In this document: positions 5,680-36,977 of the stretch, in pieces | How positions within the stretch are numbered: the stretch's first letter is position 1 | Layout: each line of letters begins with the position of its first letter | Virus record (IMG/VR): IMGVR_UViG_3300007734_000680 | Coordinates: 1 to 40,009 of that record | DNA from: a virus | Length of the DNA: 40,009 bases | Strand: one strand, 5' to 3' | Program-made: the position numbers and the translations under genes | Notes under the pieces: model-generated | What the model was told of the DNA's origin: nothing | What the model saw: only the letters and a program-made list of their open reading frames with translations | Database searches by the model: none

Positions 5680-7973
5680 TGGCTAAGGTAAGAGGCGTAC
5701 CGCGTACATTCGTTGATGGCAAGGGGGTGCCGGGGCAGTATACTACTGACCCTGCGGTTGCCCCTGCCGCACAGGTCCGAGAAATCGGCAAGTCAATCGA
5801 CAAGGCCAAGCGCCTGTCTCGTGGGCAGGTTGAGCCTGGCCGAATGCCAAGCGCAGGGATCAACGTCAAGAACATCGCTTCGGTAGCCAAGGTACGAGGT
5901 GAATCGAGGACAGCAGCTCCGTCCTCTGTGCCCAATGCCGGGCTGTCTGGAAGCGGCTCTGTCGCAACCTCTCCGACTAAAACCAACTCATCTGCTGGCG
6001 GGCGTGGTAATCCTATTGCCAAGAACTATACCCCGCTTCAGATCGACAAACTGACGGAAACCCAGGCAAACTCAGTCATGATGCTCAAGAAGTCCCTTGA
6101 GATGCAGGACGTCAACCCTGACGAGCATGAAGAGTTTAAGCTGTATGGGGAGATTCTTACACGAAAGCAGCAGCTGGAGCCAGAGCAGAACAGACTTCGC
6201 AGCATCTTCCGTCGCTTCGACAGGATGTATCATCCCGACACTATCACGCTGGGCGGGGCCGACCACTGGGCCGAAGACCCGAGCGCTCGCCTCGCCGGCC
6301 GCGCCCACGTATCGGTAAACGTCCACGCCGCATACGTCAACATCCCGTCGTCGCTGCAGGCAGTGACCCCGGTCATCCACTACGTACCCGAGGCGGCAGA
6401 CGAAGAGTCGAGGTCTAATGCTGCAAATAGAGAGAGACTATTCTTTGCCTGGTGGAACGAGCAGAACATGGACCTCAAGCTAGAGACCGCTGCACTGACC
6501 AAGAGCCTATACGGATACACCGCGGCCAAGGTATACTGGGACGCAAACCTACGCATGCCAACGGTCAGTATCATCGAGCAGCCAGAGAATCTCTACATGG
6601 GGTTCGGAAACTCCGATTACACTCGTCTAGACTGGGCTCTGTACTGCTACGGCCTGTCACCTCAGGCAGTAAAGGAAGATTTTGGCATCGACATTATCCC
6701 AGTAAAGCAGGGCGAGAAGTGGTACGGATACTCAACGTCCGGCACCCACGATGACCCGCTTGGAACTGTTTACCAGAATCAGTTTGAACGCAACCCGCTT
6801 CGGCGCGAGACTGTTTACGAGCAACTCCAGGTTGAAGTCTACGACTACTGGTATAAGGTGCCGACGTCGGCCGGCAAGCCGCCGATGGTGTGGAACGCAA
6901 TCTACGTTGGAAACACTTTGGTGAAGCACACACGCCACCCAGAATATGCCGGCAACATCCCGTACGTCATGGTGCAGAACGGCAAGGTGCCAGGAAGTCC
7001 ATACGGCAAGCCGGAGCTCTATGACGTCGAGCAGCTTCTTCGCGAGAAGGACGAGCGGATCACAAACCAGGCCCAGATGATTCAGTCTGTGGTCGGCGGG
7101 CAGATGTGGCAGCTCATCGGTGCTGAGGCCCCAGACGAGGTGCCGCCGAACGCGTTGCCTAAGCCAAACAAGGTTGCAGCGCCCGGGCCAGGAAATGAGC
7201 TCCGTGCCCTTCAGCCGTTTATACCACAGTTCCAGATTGAGGACTACAATAAGCGAATCGACCGCGAAATTGCGGTTGTTACTGGACTCAATGACCTGCT
7301 TTTGGGCCTAGCGCCAACAAGCGTTCTTGGCTCGTCTAAGGCCATTGCTTCGTTGATTGCTAACTACGAGTCTCGCCTTGCTCCAAAGAGGAAGCTCTTC
7401 TACCAGTGGATCAAGGACGTTTGGGTGCTATGCGGACGGGTATGGTCCTCAAAAGATAAATCTATGGCAGCGATATTTGACGAGCAATACAGAATAGATG
7501 TTATTCCGCCTGAGCTTACCCCGCGTGACACGCTTGAGCTTGCTCAGACTGCAATCAATCTTGTACAGAACCGCATCTGGAGCGCAGAGCGCGCAATGGA
7601 TCGAGTTGGCGTTGAGGACCCTGAGGGCGAGCTTGACATCATTCGGGACGAGCAGACTGACGCAACCGTCAACCCTGCAGCTGTCTTGACAATGGCAAAC
7701 TTGCTCCAGACGTTCCAGGCGCTGCAGGCACAGGGCGTGCAAATGCAGCAGCTACAGGGACAGCAACAGCAAGCTGAACAACAGCTCCAGGCGCAACAGC
7801 AATCGCTGAACGCATCGAGGACACTTAACCCGCCGCTGACCGCGGCGCCCGGAATGACCAGCTTTGAGAACGCAGCGAACCCTCCACAGGAATCCCTGCC
7901 GGAGAACGCGCAAGCAGGAGCTCAGCTCCCGCTTGATCTCGAAGCCCCTGAAGAGAATGGGAGTGAGCAATAA
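5679..7973 (+). CDS. Portal protein
   Basis: A 764-residue protein directly after the terminase in a TAATG overlap. The first ~110 residues are basic, low complexity and likely disordered. From ~120 the protein shows portal-like features: long helices, a segment NMDLKLETAALTKSLYGYTAAKVYWD, and GLNDLLLGLAPTSVLGSSKAIASLI (around 540-565), comparable to the wing/clip helices of large portals. The C terminus is a glutamine-rich coiled coil. The size exceeds siphovirus portals (400-500 aa) and is closer to P22-type portals. It would form the dodecameric DNA channel at the head vertex. The assignment rests on position, size and these patterns. Confidence 0.85.
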   Translation: MAKVRGVPRTFVDGKGVPGQYTTDPAVAPAAQVREIGKSIDKAKRLSRGQVEPGRMPSAGINVKNIASVAKVRGESRTAAPSSVPNAGLSGSGSVATSPTKTNSSAGGRGNPIAKNYTPLQIDKLTETQANSVMMLKKSLEMQDVNPDEHEEFKLYGEILTRKQQLEPEQNRLRSIFRRFDRMYHPDTITLGGADHWAEDPSARLAGRAHVSVNVHAAYVNIPSSLQAVTPVIHYVPEAADEESRSNAANRERLFFAWWNEQNMDLKLETAALTKSLYGYTAAKVYWDANLRMPTVSIIEQPENLYMGFGNSDYTRLDWALYCYGLSPQAVKEDFGIDIIPVKQGEKWYGYSTSGTHDDPLGTVYQNQFERNPLRRETVYEQLQVEVYDYWYKVPTSAGKPPMVWNAIYVGNTLVKHTRHPEYAGNIPYVMVQNGKVPGSPYGKPELYDVEQLLREKDERITNQAQMIQSVVGGQMWQLIGAEAPDEVPPNALPKPNKVAAPGPGNELRALQPFIPQFQIEDYNKRIDREIAVVTGLNDLLLGLAPTSVLGSSKAIASLIANYESRLAPKRKLFYQWIKDVWVLCGRVWSSKDKSMAAIFDEQYRIDVIPPELTPRDTLELAQTAINLVQNRIWSAERAMDRVGVEDPEGELDIIRDEQTDATVNPAAVLTMANLLQTFQALQAQGVQMQQLQGQQQQAEQQLQAQQQSLNASRTLNPPLTAAPGMTSFENAANPPQESLPENAQAGAQLPLDLEAPEENGSEQ

Positions 7974-10624
7974 TGGCAATCAGGACTAAACGACGTGCTC
8001 GGTTCCGCCGGGCGACATCCGGAACTCAGAACCTAACACTGCTCATCTATAACATTCTTAAGGAGCAGCAAGCTGCGCAAAAGAGCGCACTGCTATCTGC
8101 GTTCGATGCCAACATGGCCAGCGCGTCATACGATTCAACCTATGGAGGTCAGCCAGTAGACCGAGCCGCGGTAGAGGCCTGGTACGCCCAGGCGATTGCG
8201 GCATATCCAGAAGGGACAACCGAGCGTGACCGTTTGGCCGCAGAACTTGCAGAGTTCCGCACTCGGGCGATTGACAAAGAGATGGAGATTTACGGCCGAG
8301 CCTACCAAGACGGAACGTATGCGTTTGGAGAGAAGGTAACGTTTGAATCCTATATGTCATTCCTTCGAGATGCAAGGAACGGCACGGATGACCCAGAGCT
8401 TAAGCAAAAGTACCTAACGGAAGAGTTCATTGTAAATTTCAATGACATAAACGACGACATGCTTGCAAAGGGCGCAAGTTCGTCTTCTATGCTTGCATTT
8501 TATCGGAGACAGCTTAAGATTGCCCAGGAGCAGGGAGTTGGAAACGAAAACATCCGAAAGATCGAGCGATACATAACCCAGGCCGCCAAGCAGGCTGCTG
8601 CCGACGGCAAGAGAGAGGCCCAGGAGAAGGCAGGAAAGATTCTTGCCAAGAGGACCGGAGAGGTCGCCAACGCAATCTCTAGCGCGATAGACGCAGCAGC
8701 AAATGCTGGAGAAATTAGCGGTCAGGCCGCGTACGAACTTAAGGCACTGACTCCAATGCAGTTGGTCAATTCATTCCTAAAGATGGACCCTGCTACTAAG
8801 GCGTCAATACTGCGATCAGGCACTAACGCCGGAGTTTTACTCAACGGTGAGAATATCAGCGGGCAGGGCATCTTTGACTACGTCAACAACACTAGGGACG
8901 AGCTCAAGGCATACGCAAACGCAGACTGGGTTGACATTGATACAAGGACCTACCTGCGTGGGATACTGTCAGAGTTTGACCGAACAATACTCGCAGGAAG
9001 CGGGCTGTTGACGGCAACGGAGTCCGCCGCTGACAGCGGGGATACTGCCCGATTCAACAGTGCTAAGGGACTGGGAAATCCACTTGTTAACGTCGAATCG
9101 TTCAAGCTTCACGCCCAGAATCTTAGCAATCCGTCACTGTCAGATGCTGTCGGCGCAGGATCTGTTGCGCTTCTAAATGGCCTTGTGCCTAATCCGGAGC
9201 AATTTAACGGAAAGAAGAACCTTTCTGAGCTTACTCCAATAGAAGCAGAAGAGCTTGCAAGCACATTTGGCGGAGAACTATTTATCGACGGGAACCGCCA
9301 GGGCGTCATCCGAGAGATCATTGCGTCCTACACTGGAGTCGCAAAGCTACAGTCTGGGGGATCGTATCTCGAGCTCACAATCGACCCAAACAGTGGTCAG
9401 CCTGTTGTCCAGGTAACGGACGAAATCAAGCCTGGACGAAAAATATATCTATATTCAACCAAACTAGACGGTGGCGCTGGCAGGGTCACGTCTGCGGTTC
9501 AACAGGTACCATCTCGACTCGTTGACGGAAACAAGAATCCCGTTGGGGAGGTCGTTCTTGAGATTGGAAACGACGGTAGCGTAAATAGATCTGTAATTAC
9601 TCCAGACGGATATAAGATTGATTTTGATGATTACGAGTTGTTCCTGGACTCGCAGGGGATTAATCCCCAGCAGGATGCCAACGGAGACTTTGTATTTGCC
9701 AACACATCTGGAGTATATAACGGCGAGGCCATGAAGCTAGACCCAAGATTCAGCAATCTGGTTCCACAAACAAAGTGGAACGGGGTTCTTCTCGGTTCTG
9801 ACTCGGCCGCAGCCGAAGAGGATATTCGGAATAGAATTACAGATCTTGCATACACAACACCAGGTGGCCCAGCGGCAATAAGCTTTGAAATTGATGAGCA
9901 GGGCAACAGCGTTGCACGAGTAAATGATCCGGCACTTGTTGCCGCCCGACTCGGACTTACTGAGTCTGACCTGAACCAGATCATGAAGGCAGCACCTAAG
10001 GGAGACGCTGAGTCGTTCGGTAGCAAGATTGTAAAAGAAGCCGGCGTCAAGTTCTTCCGCTCGCAAGAGGGAAACGAAAACAGGGCGTCCATGAACCAGC
10101 CGATTGACCAAGCTGAAATTGACCGCCTTCGCGCCCGTGGTCAAATGGCCGTGGCACAGTACGAGGAAAGAAAGGCAAAAGCAGAGCAGGATCGTTTCTT
10201 GACTCCGCTCAGGGCTCTTTCAACAGTAATACCTGCTGGGCCACAGATACTAGATCTGACTCAATCAGCGTACAACTTTGTCACGCAAACACCAGCCGAA
10301 CAGAAGGCGTTTAAGTCTGCGGTATCTCTTGGTGCATTCTCTGGGCCAAAGTATGCTCAGTCGGCAACGACAGGGTCGACTCCTTCAGACCCGTCAGAGT
10401 ATTTCTTTAGGTACACACAGATGTCTCCAGCGGCTACGCCACCATCCACAGGAACCGGGCTTTCGACATATATGAGCACATTGGCTGCACCGCCAAAGGT
10501 TGCTACGACAAGCCCTCGTCCTACGTTTACCCCTGCTGAAGTCCAGCTGTCTTTTAATCAGTACCGGTCAGACGAGAGGGCTCCTCTTAACATCTCGACT
10601 AGCACTTCGACTGTGAGGAAGTAA
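7973..10624 (+). CDS. Large virion-associated protein (883 aa), function unknown
   Basis: It starts in a TAATG overlap with the portal and ends the same way with the next gene. The N terminus is very basic (MAIRTKRRARFRRATSG). Residues ~20-250 are mostly helical and alanine/lysine-rich; 280-620 are mixed with several aspartate/asparagine-rich beta segments; the last ~130 are low complexity (Pro/Ser/Thr). I see no enzyme motif. Between portal and scaffold, large proteins of short-tailed phages are often internal head or DNA-ejection proteins. That is the most reasonable guess, not a demonstrated role. A minor capsid or head-spike protein is an alternative. Confidence 0.55.
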   Translation: MAIRTKRRARFRRATSGTQNLTLLIYNILKEQQAAQKSALLSAFDANMASASYDSTYGGQPVDRAAVEAWYAQAIAAYPEGTTERDRLAAELAEFRTRAIDKEMEIYGRAYQDGTYAFGEKVTFESYMSFLRDARNGTDDPELKQKYLTEEFIVNFNDINDDMLAKGASSSSMLAFYRRQLKIAQEQGVGNENIRKIERYITQAAKQAAADGKREAQEKAGKILAKRTGEVANAISSAIDAAANAGEISGQAAYELKALTPMQLVNSFLKMDPATKASILRSGTNAGVLLNGENISGQGIFDYVNNTRDELKAYANADWVDIDTRTYLRGILSEFDRTILAGSGLLTATESAADSGDTARFNSAKGLGNPLVNVESFKLHAQNLSNPSLSDAVGAGSVALLNGLVPNPEQFNGKKNLSELTPIEAEELASTFGGELFIDGNRQGVIREIIASYTGVAKLQSGGSYLELTIDPNSGQPVVQVTDEIKPGRKIYLYSTKLDGGAGRVTSAVQQVPSRLVDGNKNPVGEVVLEIGNDGSVNRSVITPDGYKIDFDDYELFLDSQGINPQQDANGDFVFANTSGVYNGEAMKLDPRFSNLVPQTKWNGVLLGSDSAAAEEDIRNRITDLAYTTPGGPAAISFEIDEQGNSVARVNDPALVAARLGLTESDLNQIMKAAPKGDAESFGSKIVKEAGVKFFRSQEGNENRASMNQPIDQAEIDRLRARGQMAVAQYEERKAKAEQDRFLTPLRALSTVIPAGPQILDLTQSAYNFVTQTPAEQKAFKSAVSLGAFSGPKYAQSATTGSTPSDPSEYFFRYTQMSPAATPPSTGTGLSTYMSTLAAPPKVATTSPRPTFTPAEVQLSFNQYRSDERAPLNISTSTSTVRK

Positions 10625-13600
10625 TGGGATACCTAGGATCTTCAGGTGGTTCCGGCGGATACACACCTCGTCCATCTGTCAGCATACCAAGGGCAAAGGC
10701 GCCTGAGCCGGAGAGGATCGAGGCTAATCTAGACCCGTCAACTCCAGCTGACACAATCTTTGGAGGGATAGGCAGTCTGTTCACTGGGGTTGTTGGCGCC
10801 GGCATAGGAGTCGCCAACGCCCTGTCAAAGGTTCCAGTAGTAGGAGACGTCGGCAAGGCAGTGGCCGGTGGCCTCGGCGCTTTTGGAGAGGTTGGCATCA
10901 AGGGGATTGCCCAGGTCAAGGATGTTGCAAAGGTAGGTCTAGATCTAATCAGCCTGCCTGGAAAAGCAGTCCAGACCGGAGGTGCAGCCCTGCGAGTTTC
11001 TGGGGTTTTTGGAGAGCAGCCACGCGACGTACAGGCAATGCTAAAAAACGGAAAGTCTTTTACTGATGTCGTTGGCAGCCTGGTACAGCAGAATCGCGGC
11101 TTTAGCGACGATCAAATGACAAACCTTGGCTGGTCCCTTGTGACTGACCCGCTAAACTATGTAAATATCTTTGGGCCTGTTGCAAAAGCTGGGTCTGCCG
11201 CGAGGTTGGCCAATGTTGAACGACAAGCGCTATCAAAGGCTGACGACATTCTGGCGGCAACAAAGCGCGGCGTTCAGGTTGCGCCAGAGTATGCGTCTAT
11301 GGTCGGCAAGCGTCCAGGAGACATCCGCGCAGAGATGTTGAAGCGCTTCATGAACGAAGATGAGGTTGCGTTCCTTAACCGATGGCGTGTCGCTGGTAGC
11401 CTTTATGACGCGACCCTCGGCAAAGCTGGAAAGGGGCTTTCAGCACTTGTTGACGCGGCCCGCGGGCCAGTCCTTGCTGCCGTCGCAAGGTCGTTTAAGC
11501 AGTCGCCGAAGCAGATCCTTGAAGGACTTGAGAGCGCCAACCAGGCCGATCTTGCGGCTGCGTATGGGGCATCATTCGGTCGCGGCCTTGTACAGGCAAC
11601 GGTATTTTCTGTTTCCAGAATATTCTCTAGGGGCGAGACAAATCTTGGTCGCCTACGTGCAAATGCCGTTATACAGCGGGTGACTGCTGGGCGAGAGAAC
11701 AACATCGCAGAATCCATTATTGCCAAGGAGCTTACGGAGGCTGGTTTGGTTTCCGGCGAGCAGGCCGGAATAGACATTGTTCGACGAGTTTCGGCAATGG
11801 ACGACGCTGCCAGAAGGCGCTATGTCCGCGAAGTGGCAGATGAGTACTCTGCATCCGCAGTCAAGACTGCAGGGGCGGCTGCCGGCGGAGACTACAAAAA
11901 GCTGATGGAAATCGGCGGAATTCGAATTCAGGACACACTTGACGAAACCACTGCCTTCCTGTCAGAGGGATCGCGCAGATACGCCACGCTTCCGACCGAG
12001 GTACAGCTGTCCATATTCCTAGAGAAGTCAAGGGCGGCTATGAGCCCGTACGGACGAGACGCTGTCCGGAGAATGCTCGGCGGAGAAGTGGTAAGTTCTG
12101 GCAAGAACGTAGACGGCATCTTGCGCGATATCTTCATGAAGGCGAGCCCGGAAGACCAGGCCAGGATGGTTCATATTGCTGAAATTGCAGCATATGGAGC
12201 GCAGGCCACAAGCACGGCTACAATACGGAATGCCTTGAAGGCAGCAGCAATCTCCGACAAGGCAAAGCTCGAGGAGATTATTGGTAAGCCAATCACTGTC
12301 GAGGCGTTCAATAAGCTTAAAGAGCTTCTTGGGACCGACGCCGGCAAAAAGCTTCTTCGCCTTAACCTTGTCCGCGCCAACACCCTCACGGAGGACAGGA
12401 TTACAGCCCTGCTTAATCTTGCTGACGGCATACGAAATGGCGAGAAGTTTAAGCGTGCGCTCCTGGCAGCATTCCCAGATGACATGCGAGACGACATAGC
12501 AAAGGTGACCACGCTTGACGAGCTGGCCCAGGTTGTGATTAAGTTCTTCCCAGATATAAGCGTTACCATGGGCAAGGCAGCCCAGGGGGAATGGTCGTCA
12601 ATAGGTGCGGCACTTGATGACATCCTCGAGAGTGGCAACTTCGTTAGGACGGCGTCCCCAGAGGAGCTGGCCTCGCTAAAGTCTGCCCTGGACACGCTTT
12701 CCCCAGGCGCAGGATCTGCAGCAATTAAGTCGATTGAGGCTGGGAAGTACTCGTTTGGGTTTTCTCCAGAGGGCGGAGTAGTACGACGCGCTGTTGCAAG
12801 AGGAACTGACGACGGGTTTGAGGTTGTAAACGAGCCTATTAGCCCATTTGTGGACAACATCGACGACTTTGTCGAGGGTATCGACGAGTCGGCAGACGCG
12901 TTCAGACTGTCGGGCCTACGACGGCTGTCGAATCGATGGCTTCGCCCAATCACGTCCGGACAAGTTCAGCAACAGCAAATAGACAATACCATAAAGCTGG
13001 TGCTTGACGGCGGCGGATCCATATTGCAGGCAAAAAAGCTGTTTGCCGCGATTAACGAGACCGCACTGCGACGGCAGATCTCTCCACGAGCGCTAGTATC
13101 CGATGAAAACGCGCTTCGTCAAATTCTTCAAGACTCGCTTGGGTCCAAGTTTGACGACGTAGTAGCAAAGGCCGATCCACGCTTTAAGCGACCTAGCGTT
13201 GTTCTGATGAAGATGTTTGCGGGAAGCTCTGACGTTGTCGGTTCAGCGCAGGCTTTCACTGGGATGCTTAAGACCAGGATACCAAAGCTCGCTGTGCTAA
13301 CAGATAACTGGTACCCGCAAATCAAGTTTAAACTCAATCCGCTATTCTACATACAGGAGGCAATTGAGTCACCGTTCTTTAATTACTTGCGCGGTATTCA
13401 GCGCCAAATCAACGGCGGTGAGTACGTTGTAACGCACGGATGGGCAAAGTATCTTCCATTTGCGAAGACATCGCTCGGCGGCCGGCTTGGTCTCTCCAGG
13501 GCTATCGGGCCCGAGATAAAGCCGGAGCTGGCAGCTCTGAGTCTTGGGGCAGGAGACTCTGCTCTTCGTGCTGACCTAGACATTGCCGAGGCAGTTATTT

Positions 13601-15090
13601 TCCTGCAAGGCAAAGAGGCCGGCACGATACTTGCAACTGAGTATGGACGAACAATGGCCGGGGCACTTAGAGAGTCCCTTAACCGTGGGTCTAACAACTT
13701 CATCAGGACAATCATGAACCCGTACCCGATGAAGAATATGAAGAAACTTGAAATGACATTTGCTATCGCCGCAGAAGAGTTTGGCAACAGGCTCAGGTAC
13801 TCGATGCCAGAGCAGTGGGTAGCAATGACAAAAACGTATCAGACGTCCAACCCAAAGATGGTCATGGCGTATTTCCTCCAAGACGTTACGCGTGGGTGGG
13901 TAAACCCCACGAAGGTCGTCGATGCGTCTAGGCCGGTTGGATTTGCATTCGCTGGCAAAGGATCTATCGAGGCTGCCAAAAAGCTGGACACAGAGATCGC
14001 CAGGATATCGGCAATGCCACGTGGCACTGTTCAGGAGCTCTCAGCAGTTCGCGTCGCCCTCATGAATGTTCGCGGTGGACTTCTTGCAGATTCTGCAGCA
14101 GTTGGAAATGAGGTGACTGCGGTAGAGAAGGCGCTCACGAAACTCGTCAATGCAGACGAAACAGCGGATATCGACAAGCTTGTGGAGTCCCTGACGGGGG
14201 CGTCTACGGCCGCATCCAGGGTTGCCGAAGAGGCCGTCAACGACTTCAACCTGCTTGACGGAGCCCTGCAAAAGATTATTGCAGGCGGCAAGAGCGAGCG
14301 CATTGCAGCGCTTGGCGGCTTCCCCCGAGAGAAGATTGCAGCCTCTCTAGCACGGCACCGATCATACGGGACCGATTTCCCTGGCATGGAGGCCGTTATG
14401 GGCAAGTTGCGCTCTGGTAAAGAGCTTGACACACTTGACGTTCGTGCGCTAGAATTGGGCCTAAATACCCTTTTGGATGCGCATGGCCCAGAAGAGATGC
14501 TGCTCCAGGCCTTCCGTCAATCTCTAAAAGACGCAAATGATGCGGCCAACAGAATCCACTTCTACAACCCAAACCGAAGCGCATTCGAGCGCTCGCTAAA
14601 CCACCCGTACTTGGCATTCTATCCGTTGTCGTATATGGTGGGGAAAGTTGTACCAGAGTTCTCCAGGGCACTATTCTTCAAATTCCCATTCACTAACGTT
14701 ACCCGGCCGTTTGCTGGGTACGAGATTGTTCACGAGGTTTCAGACTTTATTGCGATGAAGATCGAGGAGGATCCGAAGTTTGCGGATGTTCTCCTCAAGT
14801 CTGACTTCCTCTTTATTCTTAAACAGCTATTCCCTGGAGTCCCAGGTGATATCTCTGTCTCGGCCCCGCGATGGGCGAATCGATACTACGCCCAGCTGCA
14901 GCGCTCACAGCGCCCAGCCCAGGGCGGCCGTGAGCCGGCTTCTGCCGACCTAGGGTATGCAATTCGCGGTATCGCTGAGCAGGCAAAGGATCAAGGGCTC
15001 TTTGGAAATATTGAGCTGTTCGGCGGAGCCGTGAGCGAAGCATGGGACTTCCTTGGCGGCGCTGTCGACTTTAATGAATCTGGCAAGTAG
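10624..15090 (+). CDS. Giant virion-associated protein (1488 aa), possible ejection protein
   Basis: The longest gene in the window. After a Gly/Ser/Pro-rich start, residues ~45-120 form glycine- and valine-rich hydrophobic stretches (FTGVVGAGIGVANAL, AVAGGLGAFGEVGIKG) that could insert in membranes. The remainder is a long mostly helical protein with repeated amphipathic alanine/lysine/glutamate segments. A region rich in aromatics follows at ~900-1000 (LFYIQEAIESPFFNYLRG), with another near the C terminus (YLAFYPLSYMVG). No catalytic motif was found. Size, membrane-active-looking N terminus and position between portal and scaffold fit an internal protein ejected to cross the envelope. A tape-measure role is possible but the gene is not in the usual tape-measure position. 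Confidence 0.5.
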   Translation: MGYLGSSGGSGGYTPRPSVSIPRAKAPEPERIEANLDPSTPADTIFGGIGSLFTGVVGAGIGVANALSKVPVVGDVGKAVAGGLGAFGEVGIKGIAQVKDVAKVGLDLISLPGKAVQTGGAALRVSGVFGEQPRDVQAMLKNGKSFTDVVGSLVQQNRGFSDDQMTNLGWSLVTDPLNYVNIFGPVAKAGSAARLANVERQALSKADDILAATKRGVQVAPEYASMVGKRPGDIRAEMLKRFMNEDEVAFLNRWRVAGSLYDATLGKAGKGLSALVDAARGPVLAAVARSFKQSPKQILEGLESANQADLAAAYGASFGRGLVQATVFSVSRIFSRGETNLGRLRANAVIQRVTAGRENNIAESIIAKELTEAGLVSGEQAGIDIVRRVSAMDDAARRRYVREVADEYSASAVKTAGAAAGGDYKKLMEIGGIRIQDTLDETTAFLSEGSRRYATLPTEVQLSIFLEKSRAAMSPYGRDAVRRMLGGEVVSSGKNVDGILRDIFMKASPEDQARMVHIAEIAAYGAQATSTATIRNALKAAAISDKAKLEEIIGKPITVEAFNKLKELLGTDAGKKLLRLNLVRANTLTEDRITALLNLADGIRNGEKFKRALLAAFPDDMRDDIAKVTTLDELAQVVIKFFPDISVTMGKAAQGEWSSIGAALDDILESGNFVRTASPEELASLKSALDTLSPGAGSAAIKSIEAGKYSFGFSPEGGVVRRAVARGTDDGFEVVNEPISPFVDNIDDFVEGIDESADAFRLSGLRRLSNRWLRPITSGQVQQQQIDNTIKLVLDGGGSILQAKKLFAAINETALRRQISPRALVSDENALRQILQDSLGSKFDDVVAKADPRFKRPSVVLMKMFAGSSDVVGSAQAFTGMLKTRIPKLAVLTDNWYPQIKFKLNPLFYIQEAIESPFFNYLRGIQRQINGGEYVVTHGWAKYLPFAKTSLGGRLGLSRAIGPEIKPELAALSLGAGDSALRADLDIAEAVIFLQGKEAGTILATEYGRTMAGALRESLNRGSNNFIRTIMNPYPMKNMKKLEMTFAIAAEEFGNRLRYSMPEQWVAMTKTYQTSNPKMVMAYFLQDVTRGWVNPTKVVDASRPVGFAFAGKGSIEAAKKLDTEIARISAMPRGTVQELSAVRVALMNVRGGLLADSAAVGNEVTAVEKALTKLVNADETADIDKLVESLTGASTAASRVAEEAVNDFNLLDGALQKIIAGGKSERIAALGGFPREKIAASLARHRSYGTDFPGMEAVMGKLRSGKELDTLDVRALELGLNTLLDAHGPEEMLLQAFRQSLKDANDAANRIHFYNPNRSAFERSLNHPYLAFYPLSYMVGKVVPEFSRALFFKFPFTNVTRPFAGYEIVHEVSDFIAMKIEEDPKFADVLLKSDFLFILKQLFPGVPGDISVSAPRWANRYYAQLQRSQRPAQGGREPASADLGYAIRGIAEQAKDQGLFGNIELFGGAVSEAWDFLGGAVDFNESGK

Positions 15091-30983: not shown

Positions 30984-31265
30984 ATGAGTAAGGTGCAGAC
31001 GCCAGAATGGGCCGATGGGGCCATTCTATACGACGGATTTGATGATTGCCTGGTCGGGTTTGGGACGCAGTTCAACCGGCCAGTGGCGGTATACGATTAC
31101 AACAAGTGCCTCGCCAAATTGGATTTGCAGTTCCGCGCAGAGTGCGAGAAGGCGAGTGCATGCGACTGCGATCACGATTTGGAGGCGCAGGAGTGGATGG
31201 ACTTCAACGTCACCGGCGGATGGGTTGGCGACCATACGCCAATATTTTTAATGACGGGCCCGTAG
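30984..31265 (+). CDS. Conserved phage protein of unknown function overlapping the tRNA
   Basis: A 93-residue acidic protein with a GGAGG site. The segment DGFDDCLVGFGTQFNRPVAVYDYNKCL resembles small proteins of many unrelated lytic phages with unknown function. Its last three codons and TAG stop lie inside the tRNA acceptor and D-stem region, a 10-bp overlap, so processing of the tRNA would remove the end of the message. One CDCDH cluster may bind metal. Confidence 0.65.
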   Translation: MSKVQTPEWADGAILYDGFDDCLVGFGTQFNRPVAVYDYNKCLAKLDLQFRAECEKASACDCDHDLEAQEWMDFNVTGGWVGDHTPIFLMTGP

Positions 31266-31331
31266 CTCAATGGTTAGAGCACCCGGCTTATATCCGGGCG
31301 GTTCCTGGTTCGAGTCCAGGCGGGCCCACCA
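31256..31331 (+). tRNA. tRNA-Ile (anticodon UAU), CCA encoded
   Basis: The full cloverleaf reads cleanly: acceptor GGGCCCG with CGGGCCC, D-arm GCTC/GAGC, anticodon stem CCCGG/CCGGG with loop CTTATAT (anticodon TAT), T-arm CCTGG-TTCGAGT-CCAGG and a 3' ACCA. UAU reads the AUA codon, which most bacteria read with a lysidine-modified CAU tRNA. AUA is common in the large virion genes, so the tRNA probably supports phage translation. The variable loop is short (CGGTT), as expected for class I. Confidence 0.95.
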
Positions 31332-34817: not shown

Positions 34818-34834
34818 CGGTTGCGAAGCAACCG
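34818..34834. other. Small hairpin upstream of the palindrome
   Basis: CGGTTGC, loop GAA, GCAACCG (34818-34834). It sits between the terminator at 34859 and the palindrome, in a 170-bp non-coding stretch. Confidence 0.4.
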
Positions 34835-34858: not shown

Positions 34859-34886
34859 CCGCCCAGCCGCGTGAGCGGCTGGGCGG
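34859..34886 (-). terminator. Terminator after the SSB-like/membrane gene pair
   Basis: A perfect 12-bp stem (34859-34870 / 34875-34886) with a GTGA loop lies 20 bp after the stop of the leftward membrane-protein gene. On that strand GATTTATTTTC follows, an interrupted T-tract. A new promoter begins just beyond, so this separates two leftward transcription units. Confidence 0.75.
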
Positions 34887-34906: not shown

Positions 34907-35095
34907 CTAGATCCTGCGGTAGTGTTCGCGGAGACGGATGTTGATCTCATCTCCGATCCACAACGAAGTGCCGAGGATACCTAGTCCTGCTGGCACTCCG
35001 AATGCAGCGCCGAGTAGGGAGCCGAAGGCTCCGTAGCCGGCTGCTGCGCCGAACACTAGCGATGCAACCAATAGAATCTTCTCTCCTGCGTTCAT
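34907..35095 (-). CDS. Small glycine-rich membrane protein
   Basis: 62 residues after GAGGAGG. Two hydrophobic, glycine/alanine-rich stretches (KILLVASLVFGAAAGYGAFG and LLGAAFGVPAGLGILGTSLW) form a helical hairpin. The tail is charged (INIRLREHYRRI). The start overlaps the SSB-like gene by 4 bp. Possible roles include a membrane anchor or small toxin-like protein; nothing specific is visible. Confidence 0.6.
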   Translation of the reverse strand: MNAGEKILLVASLVFGAAAGYGAFGSLLGAAFGVPAGLGILGTSLWIGDEINIRLREHYRRI

Positions 35096-35430
35096 GCTGG
35101 AACCTCCTCATTCATGCTGTCTACAACGATGTTGGTATAGTACACTGGCTTACCACCTGCGACATCCTTCTTCTTGATGTCAATGTGTCCAGTGAAGTCT
35201 ACCATCTGACCTGCCTTGGCAGCAAGTGCCTCGGCTACCGTACCGCTTGCGATGCAGCGGATGTAGCGCACCTTGGTATCTTCACCTTCGCCGCTGGTGG
35301 CAGCAACTGTGAAGGTTAGGCGTGCTGTACCGTACTGCGAGAGTTCCTTGCTTGTGAACTGGTACGATGGTGTCGCACCGTCCGCTCGGAACTGCTGGAA
35401 CTTACCTGAGAGCCTAACCGTGTTAGCCAT
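35092..35430 (-). CDS. SSB-like OB-fold protein
   Basis: 112 residues from ATG 35430 with AGGAG upstream. The order of strands resembles a compact OB-fold: VRLSGKFQQFRAD, then ARLTFTVAATSGEG, VRYIRCIASG, then MVDFTGHIDIKKKDVAGGKPVYYTNIVVDSM. This is like phage single-strand DNA-binding proteins, but it lacks the long acidic tail of bacterial SSB and is short. As the first gene of the leftward strand next to the non-coding region, it would be made early and could coat DNA for the DnaB helicase and ERF. The assignment is by pattern only. Confidence 0.55.
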   Translation of the reverse strand: MANTVRLSGKFQQFRADGATPSYQFTSKELSQYGTARLTFTVAATSGEGEDTKVRYIRCIASGTVAEALAAKAGQMVDFTGHIDIKKKDVAGGKPVYYTNIVVDSMNEEVPA

Positions 35431-35619
35431 TTCTGCTAACTCCTTTTGCTATGTCCAGGTTGCCACGCGGAAGTCCCTTGTGGGGGCTGGACAACGAGGG
35501 TATCCATCGGTTGTCAAGGGCGCCGCCCGCAGGGCGGAGCCGCATTTGTCCGAGGAGCTGTGAAGCGACGAGGTGATAGTAGAGTGCTCCGGCTTGACCG
35601 GCGGGAGCGTGAGCGACTA

Positions 35620-35662
35620 GCGGGGCTGCGCATCGCTTATAAATAAATAAGCGCAGCCCCGC
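35620..35662. other. 12-bp hairpin with AT-rich loop in non-coding region
   Basis: GCGGGGCTGCGC (35620-35631) pairs perfectly with GCGCAGCCCCGC (35651-35662). The 19-base loop contains its own CGCTTAT/ATAAGCG pairing. It could be a terminator-like element, part of a structured RNA or an origin cruciform. Confidence 0.6.
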
Positions 35663-35723
35663 GTCACCCTTTACTCCGATGGTACCCTTGGAAGACCAGC
35701 CCCCAGACCGTATTTCGCCAAGA

Positions 35724-35778
35724 CGACCGAGCCTGCGCGTGAGCGCAGAAAAACGCGCAAGCGTTTTCTGCTCGGTTG
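35724..35778 (+). ncRNA. Candidate structured RNA: three-way junction with two GNRA loops
   Basis: A 9-bp outer helix (35724-35732 / 35770-35778, one G-U) encloses two hairpins. The first is 35733-35748, 6 bp with loop GTGA. The second is 35750-35756 / 35761-35767, 7 bp with loop GCAA. Both loops are GNRA type when read on the plus strand only. GCAG (35745-35748) can alternatively pair with CTGC (35768-35771), extending the second hairpin at the expense of the first. No known RNA family was recognised. Confidence 0.4.
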
Positions 35779-36088
35779 GATTGGCGTGTGCAAGTTGGCT
35801 TATCTTGCGCTGTGCTTGTTGCTGAGCGTGAACTGTGCGTGAGTGTGGGGGTAATACACCATCTACCAACCATACCCCCCTGCACTTCACACATGACAAT
35901 GCCCCTGTGCAGCCAATAGGCTTCTGTTCTGGCAGCGCACAATTTCCACTGAGGGGGCTCCTGGGCGGTGTTTTGATAAGATTTCCGCCCGCGTGGGTAC
36001 ACCCCAGCTCCGCCCTTGGACACCCCCAGTGAAAATGAGCCCCCTCCCTTCCTAAAGGCCATGCATATATTTTTTAAAGAAACCTTAA

Positions 36089-36117
36089 TCTGTACAATTT
36101 TCTGCAAAAAGTGCCAA
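36089..36117 (-). promoter_or_regulatory. Weak candidate leftward promoter upstream of the SSB-like operon
   Basis: On the minus strand TTGGCA (36117-36112), 17 bp, TACAGA (36094-36089) in AT-rich DNA. It would produce a leader of ~650 bases through the inverted-repeat region before the SSB-like gene. The -10 is poor. Confidence 0.3.
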
Positions 36118-36192
36118 AAACCTGTCTTATATATAGAGGACTATTACAGGTATACCGGAATCTTAAACAAAGAAGGTATATAAACCTTTAGG

Positions 36193-36205
36193 GGGCAGTC
36201 TGCCC
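36193..36205 (+). promoter_or_regulatory. Small hairpin next to the ribosome site of 36220
   Basis: GGGCA, loop GTC, TGCCC, directly before GGGAGA, the ribosome site of the next gene. It could modulate translation start; this is tentative. Confidence 0.3.
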
Positions 36206-36219
36206 TGGGAGATGTAACA

Positions 36220-36573
36220 ATGCCAGTACGCAAGGGAGTGGACCCGAAGCCGGATGGACAGACCTGGAGCCAGGGCCGCAAGGCCGCTGAGGGCGCCAGG
36301 GGGTATGCTCCTGCCCCGCGTGGTGGCACAAAGCCCGTACAGCTCGGCACTACCCGTGGCGCAAATGCCTATACGCGGGTATGGCGGCCTGGATTCGGCT
36401 GGAAGCCAGCGTTCGTACAGGCCGGAAACACCATCAAGGGCGCTAGGGCAGTTGATGTTGCCGGTGGCAATGTGCTGAAAGAAGCCCTTCGCGCCACGAA
36501 CAAGACTTCCATGGGGCCACTCAGCTTTGGCGGCGGTGGCGGCGGAGATCTAAGAAGCCAGAAGAAGAAGTAA
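36220..36573 (+). CDS. Basic glycine-rich protein (117 aa)
   Basis: First gene of the rightward late block, with GGGAGA before the ATG. The sequence is mostly low complexity: SQGRKAAEGARGYAPAPRGG, then a short ordered part (RVWRPGFGWKPAFVQAGNTI), a run of glycines and a KKK end. No motif was seen. The cluster of very basic proteins here suggests DNA- or virion-associated roles. It ends in a TAATG overlap. Confidence 0.55.
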   Translation: MPVRKGVDPKPDGQTWSQGRKAAEGARGYAPAPRGGTKPVQLGTTRGANAYTRVWRPGFGWKPAFVQAGNTIKGARAVDVAGGNVLKEALRATNKTSMGPLSFGGGGGGDLRSQKKK

Positions 36574-36977
36574 TGGCCCCGCGCACACGGTTGCAGCGGG
36601 CCCAGGCGTACGTCGACGAGGCCAAAGAGGTACTGAACCTCTCCCAGTGGGAGATAAAGGTCCAGGACTACCCGTCGGCGGAAGACGCGTATGCGGATAT
36701 CGAGCCGCATGACTACCTCTGGCACGCCAAGCTCCGCCTTTCAGAGGACTTCTGGAAGGAAAAGCCGGAGGATCAGGCCAAGATCGTGGCCCACGAGCTG
36801 CTCCACCTGCACTATGCCGGTGTCGAGCGTATTATCAACCACCTGGAGCCAATACTCGGCGGCCAGGCCCACGAACTTCTCTCTAAGTTCTGGGATATCG
36901 AGGTAGAGAGAGCTGCGGACGCGCTGTCCGGCCCCGTCGGAGGGCTACTGCCGACACCAGATTTCGGGGGCAAGTGA
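36573..36977 (+). CDS. HExxH zinc metallopeptidase-like protein
   Basis: A 134-residue protein. [15 protein letters not shown] (69-83) gives the zinc motif H74-E75-x-x-H78, and [11 protein letters not shown] (~109-119) provides a possible third ligand glutamate, an arrangement like small gluzincins. The N terminus is a helix rich in Glu/Lys followed by WEIKVQDYP, as in SprT/ImmA-like minimal proteases. It is cytoplasmic (no signal). It could process a virion protein, act on a host regulator or be structural. Substrate is unknown. Confidence 0.65.

Follow-up and report, generated by a model that had tools for sequence, protein, structure and literature searches.

A conserved, strand-biased folding region that changes together with the neighbouring ssb gene of a tailed phage: a candidate single-stranded DNA control element

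Here, we describe a non-coding gap of 789 bp at positions 35431-36219 of a viral sequence, IMG/VR record IMGVR_UViG_3300007734_000680 (the window, i.e., the whole stretch of 40,009 nt analysed). It separates a leftward operon, headed by a gene for a single-strand-binding protein (ssb), from a rightward operon starting at 36220. The gap is a real, conserved, non-protein-coding and strongly folding region. Its helices show compensatory changes, its fold and loops are biased towards the plus strand, its left part changes together with ssb, and two relatives carry an inverted relic of their own ssb at this place. Tentatively, and with clearly less than even confidence, we interpret the gap as a cis control region between the divergent operons, whose left half may act as folded plus-strand single-stranded DNA (ssDNA) and start leftward RNA synthesis.

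Results and Discussion

A non-coding gap composed of four blocks

The sequence-only reading, made by a model from the letters of the window and a list of its open reading frames (ORFs), had singled out this gap as non-coding. This is in good agreement with our analysis: it is the largest gap in the ORF tiling of the window (the second largest has 319 bp), and coding was rejected, as the ORFs that it contains in the window are interrupted by stops and frameshifts in relatives. A protein-like frame in the rightmost block of one relative (ICKKCQKPVLYIEDYYRYTG... in L016) also runs into stops in other relatives, and this block is thus non-coding. The dense nested repeats noted earlier are real; they do not form one uniform structure. 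Instead, the gap consists of block A (35451-35720), block B (35721-35940), block C (about 35945-36035) and block D (36091-36219), also referred to as modules. The flanking features are:

35092..35430, minus strand: ssb, OB-fold single-strand-binding protein of 112 amino acids (aa), first gene of the leftward operon (Pfam and PHROG)
35422..35447, minus strand: small hairpin GTTAGC/GCTAAC whose loop contains the ssb start codon; the Shine-Dalgarno (SD) sequence AAAAGGAG lies just upstream
36220..36573, plus strand: first gene of the rightward operon, sequence-variable (51-73% identity among close relatives)

The ssb product matches Pfam SSB (E=1.9e-5; 25.1 bits, just below the 26-bit cut-off) and PHROG 44 (E=1.5e-5). 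Its SD sequence at 35440-35447 on the minus strand lies within the left edge of the gap, and the arms, the loop position and the SD sequence of the start hairpin are kept in four out of four close phages. A protein search with the first rightward gene found no relative.

Module A is linked to ssb

Close relatives of the window phage (W) were found by protein search with ssb. These three viral contigs, L002, L003 and L004, have an ssb that is 91-93% identical and carry module A, a variable module B, and modules C and D. A search with the protein encoded from 36573 led to phages that have C and D and another ssb, about 30% identical (L014 and L016). L018 and L019, obtained by the same search, keep C and D and are cut at the contig end; in those inspected among the more distant relatives (L020-L038), the ssb neighbourhood is not kept. 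L053, also returned as an ssb relative, was excluded; it overlaps an unrelated long ORF.

Module A can be aligned only where ssb is more than 90% identical. Where ssb is about 30% identical, as in L014 and L016, C and D are retained and module A is replaced by another sequence, which again folds into a long rod (z about -7). Since module A is swapped with ssb in this way, its link is to ssb rather than to the rightward operon. The earlier reading had missed that the structure travels with ssb, as well as the inverted ssb relic described below.

Helices and compensatory changes in module A

Pairwise identity of module A among the four phages ranges from 87 to 96%. Its elements are as follows:

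35451..35720, plus strand: module A, imperfect inverted repeat of about 270 bp, rod with branched top; RNA fold z -4.9 to -6.6
35482..35490, plus strand: 5' arm of P1, GGGGGCTGG, partner 35696-35704; invariant in four phages
35696..35704, plus strand: 3' arm of P1, CCAGCCCCC
35523..35537, plus strand: P5 hairpin CCGCCC-GCA-GGGCGG; the loops in the relatives are GCCA, GCGA and GCCA
35550..35573, plus strand: P6 core hairpin C-GA-G-GA-GCU-GUGA-AGC-GA-C-GA-G with tandem GA/GA; the outer pair covaries (C-G/A-U)
35589..35601, plus strand: P7 hairpin CCGG-CTTGA-CCGG; CGGG/CCCG in L003
35604..35617, plus strand: P8 hairpin GGAGC-GTGA-GCGAC; CGCAG-GTGA-CTGCG in L002
35620..35662, plus strand: P9, perfect 12-bp stem GCGGGGCTGCGC/GCGCAGCCCCGC with AT-rich loop; both arms change together in relatives

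Two-sided changes that preserve pairing were observed in P2, P6, P7, P8 and P9 among the four close phages, while P1, P3, P4 and P5 are invariant. The covarying helices contain a single broken pair, located in P2 of L002. Together with the strong fold z-scores given below, these changes uphold the idea, raised from the sequence alone, of a conserved nucleic-acid structure. P6 is the sole element found common by sequence to module A and its counterpart in L014, and it lies at a similar distance from ssb in both. Its extended core, CGAGGAGC..GCGACGA, occurs once in the window clade and once in L014, and is absent from the other phages retrieved.

Module A is better conserved than the fourfold-degenerate sites of ssb in the pairs W-L004 and W-L003 (94% versus 83-84%). 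The order is reversed for L002 and L003 (90% versus 98%), because L002 altered several linked positions of P8 and P9 at once. The covariation argues strongly that a single strand is paired at some stage, and less strongly that it functions as RNA. Template switching at the arms of inverted repeats can yield joint arm changes without selection (PMC8794818, PMC8604942).

Fold strength

Folded as RNA, the first 630 nt of the gap have z-scores of -7.5 (plus strand) and -5.6 (minus strand). Module A (281 nt) as RNA has z = -6.6 on the plus strand, compared to a best value of -5.15 among 54 window/strand samples from elsewhere in the window. Folding as DNA gives z = -8.3 for plus and -6.6 for minus. 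Simple local hairpins (stem of at least 5 bp, loop of 3-8 nt) are not denser in the gap, with about 6 per kb versus 7.5 per kb elsewhere. The count of short helices by itself is thus no evidence, long-range pairing is, and the structure signal consists of long-range helices and loop type, not of local hairpin density. Of the many helices that had first drawn attention to the gap, the fold far beyond chance and the mutually exclusive pairings stand, and a local excess does not. An example of the latter pairings is GAGGGGGCTC at 35951, which pairs with GAGCCCCCTC at 36037 or (by eye) with CCCCCAGTG just upstream.

Strand bias and loop types

The plus strand is the template strand of ssb. Hairpins with loops of 3-4 nt and stems of at least 5 bp in the gap of seven phages show, on this strand, 16 loops of the type G..A and none of the type T..C, whereas the remainder of the window has 10 and 13, respectively. 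Counted as distinct stem tops, the numbers in the gap are 11 and 0. Four phages pooled have 13 such hairpins, where 500 shuffles gave a mean of 0.5 and a maximum of 5. The tandem-GA mini-hairpin GAGC-N(3-6)-GCGA is found eight times in L014, always on the plus strand, a number reached in 0 of 200 shuffles. As DNA, the plus strand has the lower fold z-score in all three sequence types; as RNA, it folds better by minimum free energy (MFE) in six out of six phages and by z-score in five out of six (with a negligible margin in L002). GU wobbles are distributed unequally between the L014 arms (19 versus 6), which again favours plus; the same count in other phages relied on chance-level alignments and hence was not used. 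Fold energy and loop type point to plus as the acting strand, and the loop counts strengthen an earlier guess based on GNRA loops.

The caps are mostly GNA, or GNNA other than GNRA (GCCA, GTTA, GGCA), and GNRA loops (GTGA, GCAA, GCGA) also occur. RNA prefers the GNRA subset of such loops. Mini-hairpins of DNA are known to be extraordinarily stable when GNA or GNNA loops cap G-C stems (PMC4686876). We do not claim that GNA loops are confined to the template strand: several hairpins of the gap obey such a rule, but coding sequence of relatives breaks it.

An alternative is a structured plus-strand RNA of 300-700 nt that acts as RNA, be it a new non-coding RNA or the rightward operon's 5' leader, which would then be very long. 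The plus strand does fold better as RNA, the overall RNA fold is strong, and GNRA tetraloops and tandem G-A pairs sit on this strand. However, no promoter-like site was seen inside or next to the ssb start region, where such a transcript would have to begin, and there is no Rfam match. Furthermore, the module is exchanged along with ssb, its antisense neighbour, and contains numerous GNA triloops, a type that stands out in DNA rather than in RNA. We regard this RNA as unlikely, although far from negligible.

An inverted ssb relic in two sister phages

Read on the plus strand, the far arm of the L014 rod reproduces in degenerate form the ssb leader, SD sequence, start and coding sequence of this phage; the local alignment score is 277 versus a maximum of 85 in 500 shuffles. 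L016 carries an inverted relic of its own ssb as well (score 100, shuffle maximum 71). For each relic, the best match is the ssb of the same phage, which indicates that the duplications, or the copying between arms, were separate in the two lineages. Positions 1218-2303 of L014 form an imperfect palindrome of 1.1 kb that holds ssb and the decayed inverted copy; its arms differ by about 53 one-base gaps versus 85 mismatches, an unusually high number of single-base indels. Since the expected C and D blocks come after the far arm, the palindrome is unlikely to be a sequencing foldback. In the window clade the rod is present, and no recognisable relic was detected.

The relics raise the question of whether the structure is a mutational fossil, i.e., an inverted ssb duplication whose arms are kept matched and whose loops are kept stable by quasi-palindrome template switching, the structure itself being functionless. 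Template switching homogenises the arms of inverted repeats and can mimic compensatory change (PMC8794818, PMC8604942). The recognisable relics in L014 and L016, the abundant single-base indels between the L014 arms and the P8-P9 changes of L002, clustered as if they were one event, are all in line with such an origin. What a fossil explains less well is that module A is mostly conserved at least as strongly as the fourfold ssb sites, the pair L002-L003 apart, whereas the adjoining module B retains just 50-65% in window comparisons. Likewise, the window clade shows no recognisable ssb relic, and the core P6 motif is found at a similar offset in clades with different ssb. A functionless fossil is unlikely in our judgement, with a chance similar to that of the plus-strand RNA.

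Alternatively, the minus strand might be the 5' leader of the ssb mRNA, whose fold would control ssb translation in the way that T4 gp32 controls that of its own mRNA (PMC535899). Module A starts within a few bases of the ssb SD sequence and is replaced along with ssb, the ssb start codon lies in a conserved hairpin loop, and in L014 and L016 the SD sequence (AAGGAGG) pairs with CCTCCTT, its match at the base of the rod. In the window clade, however, the SD sequence is located outside the rod. The minus strand also folds less stably, and loop bias and tandem G-A pairs favour plus. Instead of a rod of 300 nt, the gp32 operator itself combines a short pseudoknot with an unstructured, UUAAA-rich stretch that comes after it (PMC535899). 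Control of ssb translation by such a leader is rather unlikely.

Modules B, C and D

The right part of the gap comprises the following modules:

35716..35786, plus strand: module B, second imperfect palindrome with two top hairpins, one with a GTGA loop (35733-35748) and one with a GCAA loop (35750-35767)
35945..36035, unstranded: module C, GC-rich, GGGGGCTCC ... GGGTACACCC ... CTCCGCCC ... ACCCCC; conserved in 7-8 phages
36091..36219, plus strand: module D, AT-rich, 129 bp, ends exactly at the start codon of the rightward operon; no intact frame

Module B is 50-65% identical in most pairs and in the window comparisons, and 93% between L002 and L003. Module C, found throughout this group of phages, has just 12 consensus pairs and weak covariation. 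Module D is 97-99% identical in the window clade versus 83-87% at fourfold sites in most pairs; it is kept in L014 and L016 and, more weakly, in L018 and L019, while the following gene diverges at once. Module D probably represents the promoter and 5' leader of the rightward operon.

An origin or control region had also been suggested from the sequence alone. This is plausible given the divergent operons, the ssb neighbour and the AT-rich module D. If the gap were the replication origin of the phage, D would be the unwinding element and the hairpins would be primer or helicase-loading sites, which overlaps with our proposal insofar as the hairpins are priming sites. A non-coding stretch between divergent operons, beside ssb and with a conserved AT-rich block, would be a suitable place. 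No iterons were seen by inspection, though, the skew of G over C in this stretch simply follows gene direction, switching sign with it, and the end of D coincides exactly with a start codon, which would be expected of a promoter or leader. We consider an origin very unlikely.

The suggestion of a large phage RNA such as GOLLD or ROOL, which size, many-helix look and a tRNA in the phage genome might favour, has a negligible probability: all families of Rfam 15, run as covariance models on the window and five relative loci, gave no match at gathering except tRNA, which leaves GOLLD and ROOL unsupported as far as Rfam models can exclude them, only two weak microRNA-precursor matches fall on the region at E<=5, and the sole tRNA is about 4 kb away. 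This tRNA-Ile (31256-31331, anticodon TAT, reading ATA) abuts the end of a plus-strand ORF; a tRNA was also detected in L016 and L004.

Proposed mechanism

In the proposed cis control region, the reading that the data support best, the plus strand would become exposed during replication and fold into the rod with its mini-hairpins. Leftward RNA synthesis would then start from the fold, which would act as ssb promoter or as a priming site for the complementary strand, and ssb expression or complementary-strand priming would thereby be tied to the presence of ssDNA. The structure would belong to the ssb unit and be rebuilt via inverted duplication of the ssb end when the unit changes, and the right 130 bp probably serve as promoter and leader of the rightward operon. 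We infer from the structure both that the acting molecule is DNA rather than RNA and that RNA synthesis starts there.

Several points weigh against this proposal. The covariation rests on few events, as module A is common to four phages only. No -10/-35 pair with at least 9 of 12 matching positions was found in the gap, the host and its sigma factors not being identified, and weak 8/12 promoter-like sites lie outside module A in the window. A tailed phage with double-stranded DNA (dsDNA) is not expected to enter as ssDNA, so that exposure would need replication. GNRA loops (GTGA, GCAA, GCGA) are equally typical of RNA. Finally, quasi-palindrome template switching can create and maintain paired arms without structural selection (PMC8794818, PMC8604942), and snap-back of one strand might also bias loop types.

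The inverted ssb relics catch in progress a route by which long hairpins are made, inverted gene duplication, in a situation where covariation is usually taken to prove that an RNA is functional. A cheap test to separate DNA-acting from RNA-acting structures in other phages is provided by the loop bias between strands.

The phage and its neighbouring features

The window belongs to a tailed dsDNA phage. It encodes a major head protein, for which named phages hold distant relatives only, and weak matches to terminase, portal and distal-tail proteins. Its genes for replication and recombination are of the DnaB, exonuclease and Erf types. No relatives of the phage were found in named phage and plasmid collections, and a prophage/host search of a genome contig collection with the major head protein and block D gave no match.

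Within the leftward operon, a perfect GC hairpin of 12 bp at 34859-34886 is terminator-like on the minus strand and has a GTGA loop on the plus strand; identical copies exist in relatives. Beside it, the hairpin CGGTTGC-GAA-GCAACCG (34818-34834) is changed to CAGTTGC-GCA-GCAACTG in relatives. On the other side of the gap, 36573-36977 encodes a well conserved protein with a HELLH zinc-metalloprotease-like motif and without Pfam or PHROG match; its relatives occur in 26 viral contigs, with a different neighbourhood in several of them. Between portal and major head protein, 7973-15090 encodes two proteins of very large size (883 and 1488 aa) that gave no match and are possibly injected virion proteins.

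Comparison with known systems

Control of ssb by ssDNA is already known in conjugative plasmids, where Frpo, a folded ssDNA promoter upstream of ssb, is stimulated by SSB (PMC11541004, PMC9849209). As in Frpo/ssi elements, the better-folding strand here is the template strand of ssb (lower DNA z-score in three out of three sequence types). In contrast to them, -35/-10 boxes rebuilt in a stem were not found (no 9/12 site, host sigma not identified), the carrier is a dsDNA phage instead of a conjugative ssDNA, and the element is longer, with branched hairpins. A blastn comparison with the 72,556 plasmids of PLSDB for Frpo sequence similarity gave no match. Because neither a -35/-10 pair nor a plasmid sequence match was found, we do not file the gap in the Frpo/ssi family. 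That it is a Frpo-like switch in a tailed dsDNA phage, a folded ssDNA on the template strand of ssb that is recurrently rebuilt from an inverted duplication of ssb, is an improbable but attractive variant of our proposal; if true, the switch would derive from the mirror image of the gene itself, the gene of an ssDNA-coating protein would be read when ssDNA appears, and phages, too, would read ssDNA as a signal.

STAXI (Rfam RF01728; PMC2864571) is also a structured element near ssb-type genes for which an ssDNA function was considered, and the gap shares this location, with ssb at 35092-35430. STAXI consists, however, of tandem pseudoknots with UUCG loops, and the RF01728 model has no match here. 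The operator of gene 32 in T4 and RB69 (PMC535899) resembles the gap in that a structure adjoins the start of an ssb gene in a phage. It is a short pseudoknot with UUAAA repeats on the mRNA strand, whereas the rod of 270 nt described here has the opposite strand as its better-folding one; no UUAAA repeats were seen upstream of the SD sequence, and the minus strand folds, less than plus, under a model that leaves pseudoknots aside. With GOLLD and ROOL (PMC12286853) the gap has in common that it is a many-helix non-coding region of a phage, and it differs by the lack of a covariance-model match, a conserved core of about 270 bp and tRNAs that are not adjacent. Quasi-palindromes shaped by template switching (PMC8794818, PMC8604942) likewise have inverted-repeat arms that are kept alike and change in step, but in the region described here the loops are also biased towards one strand, and an inverted relic of a gene forms part of the arms.
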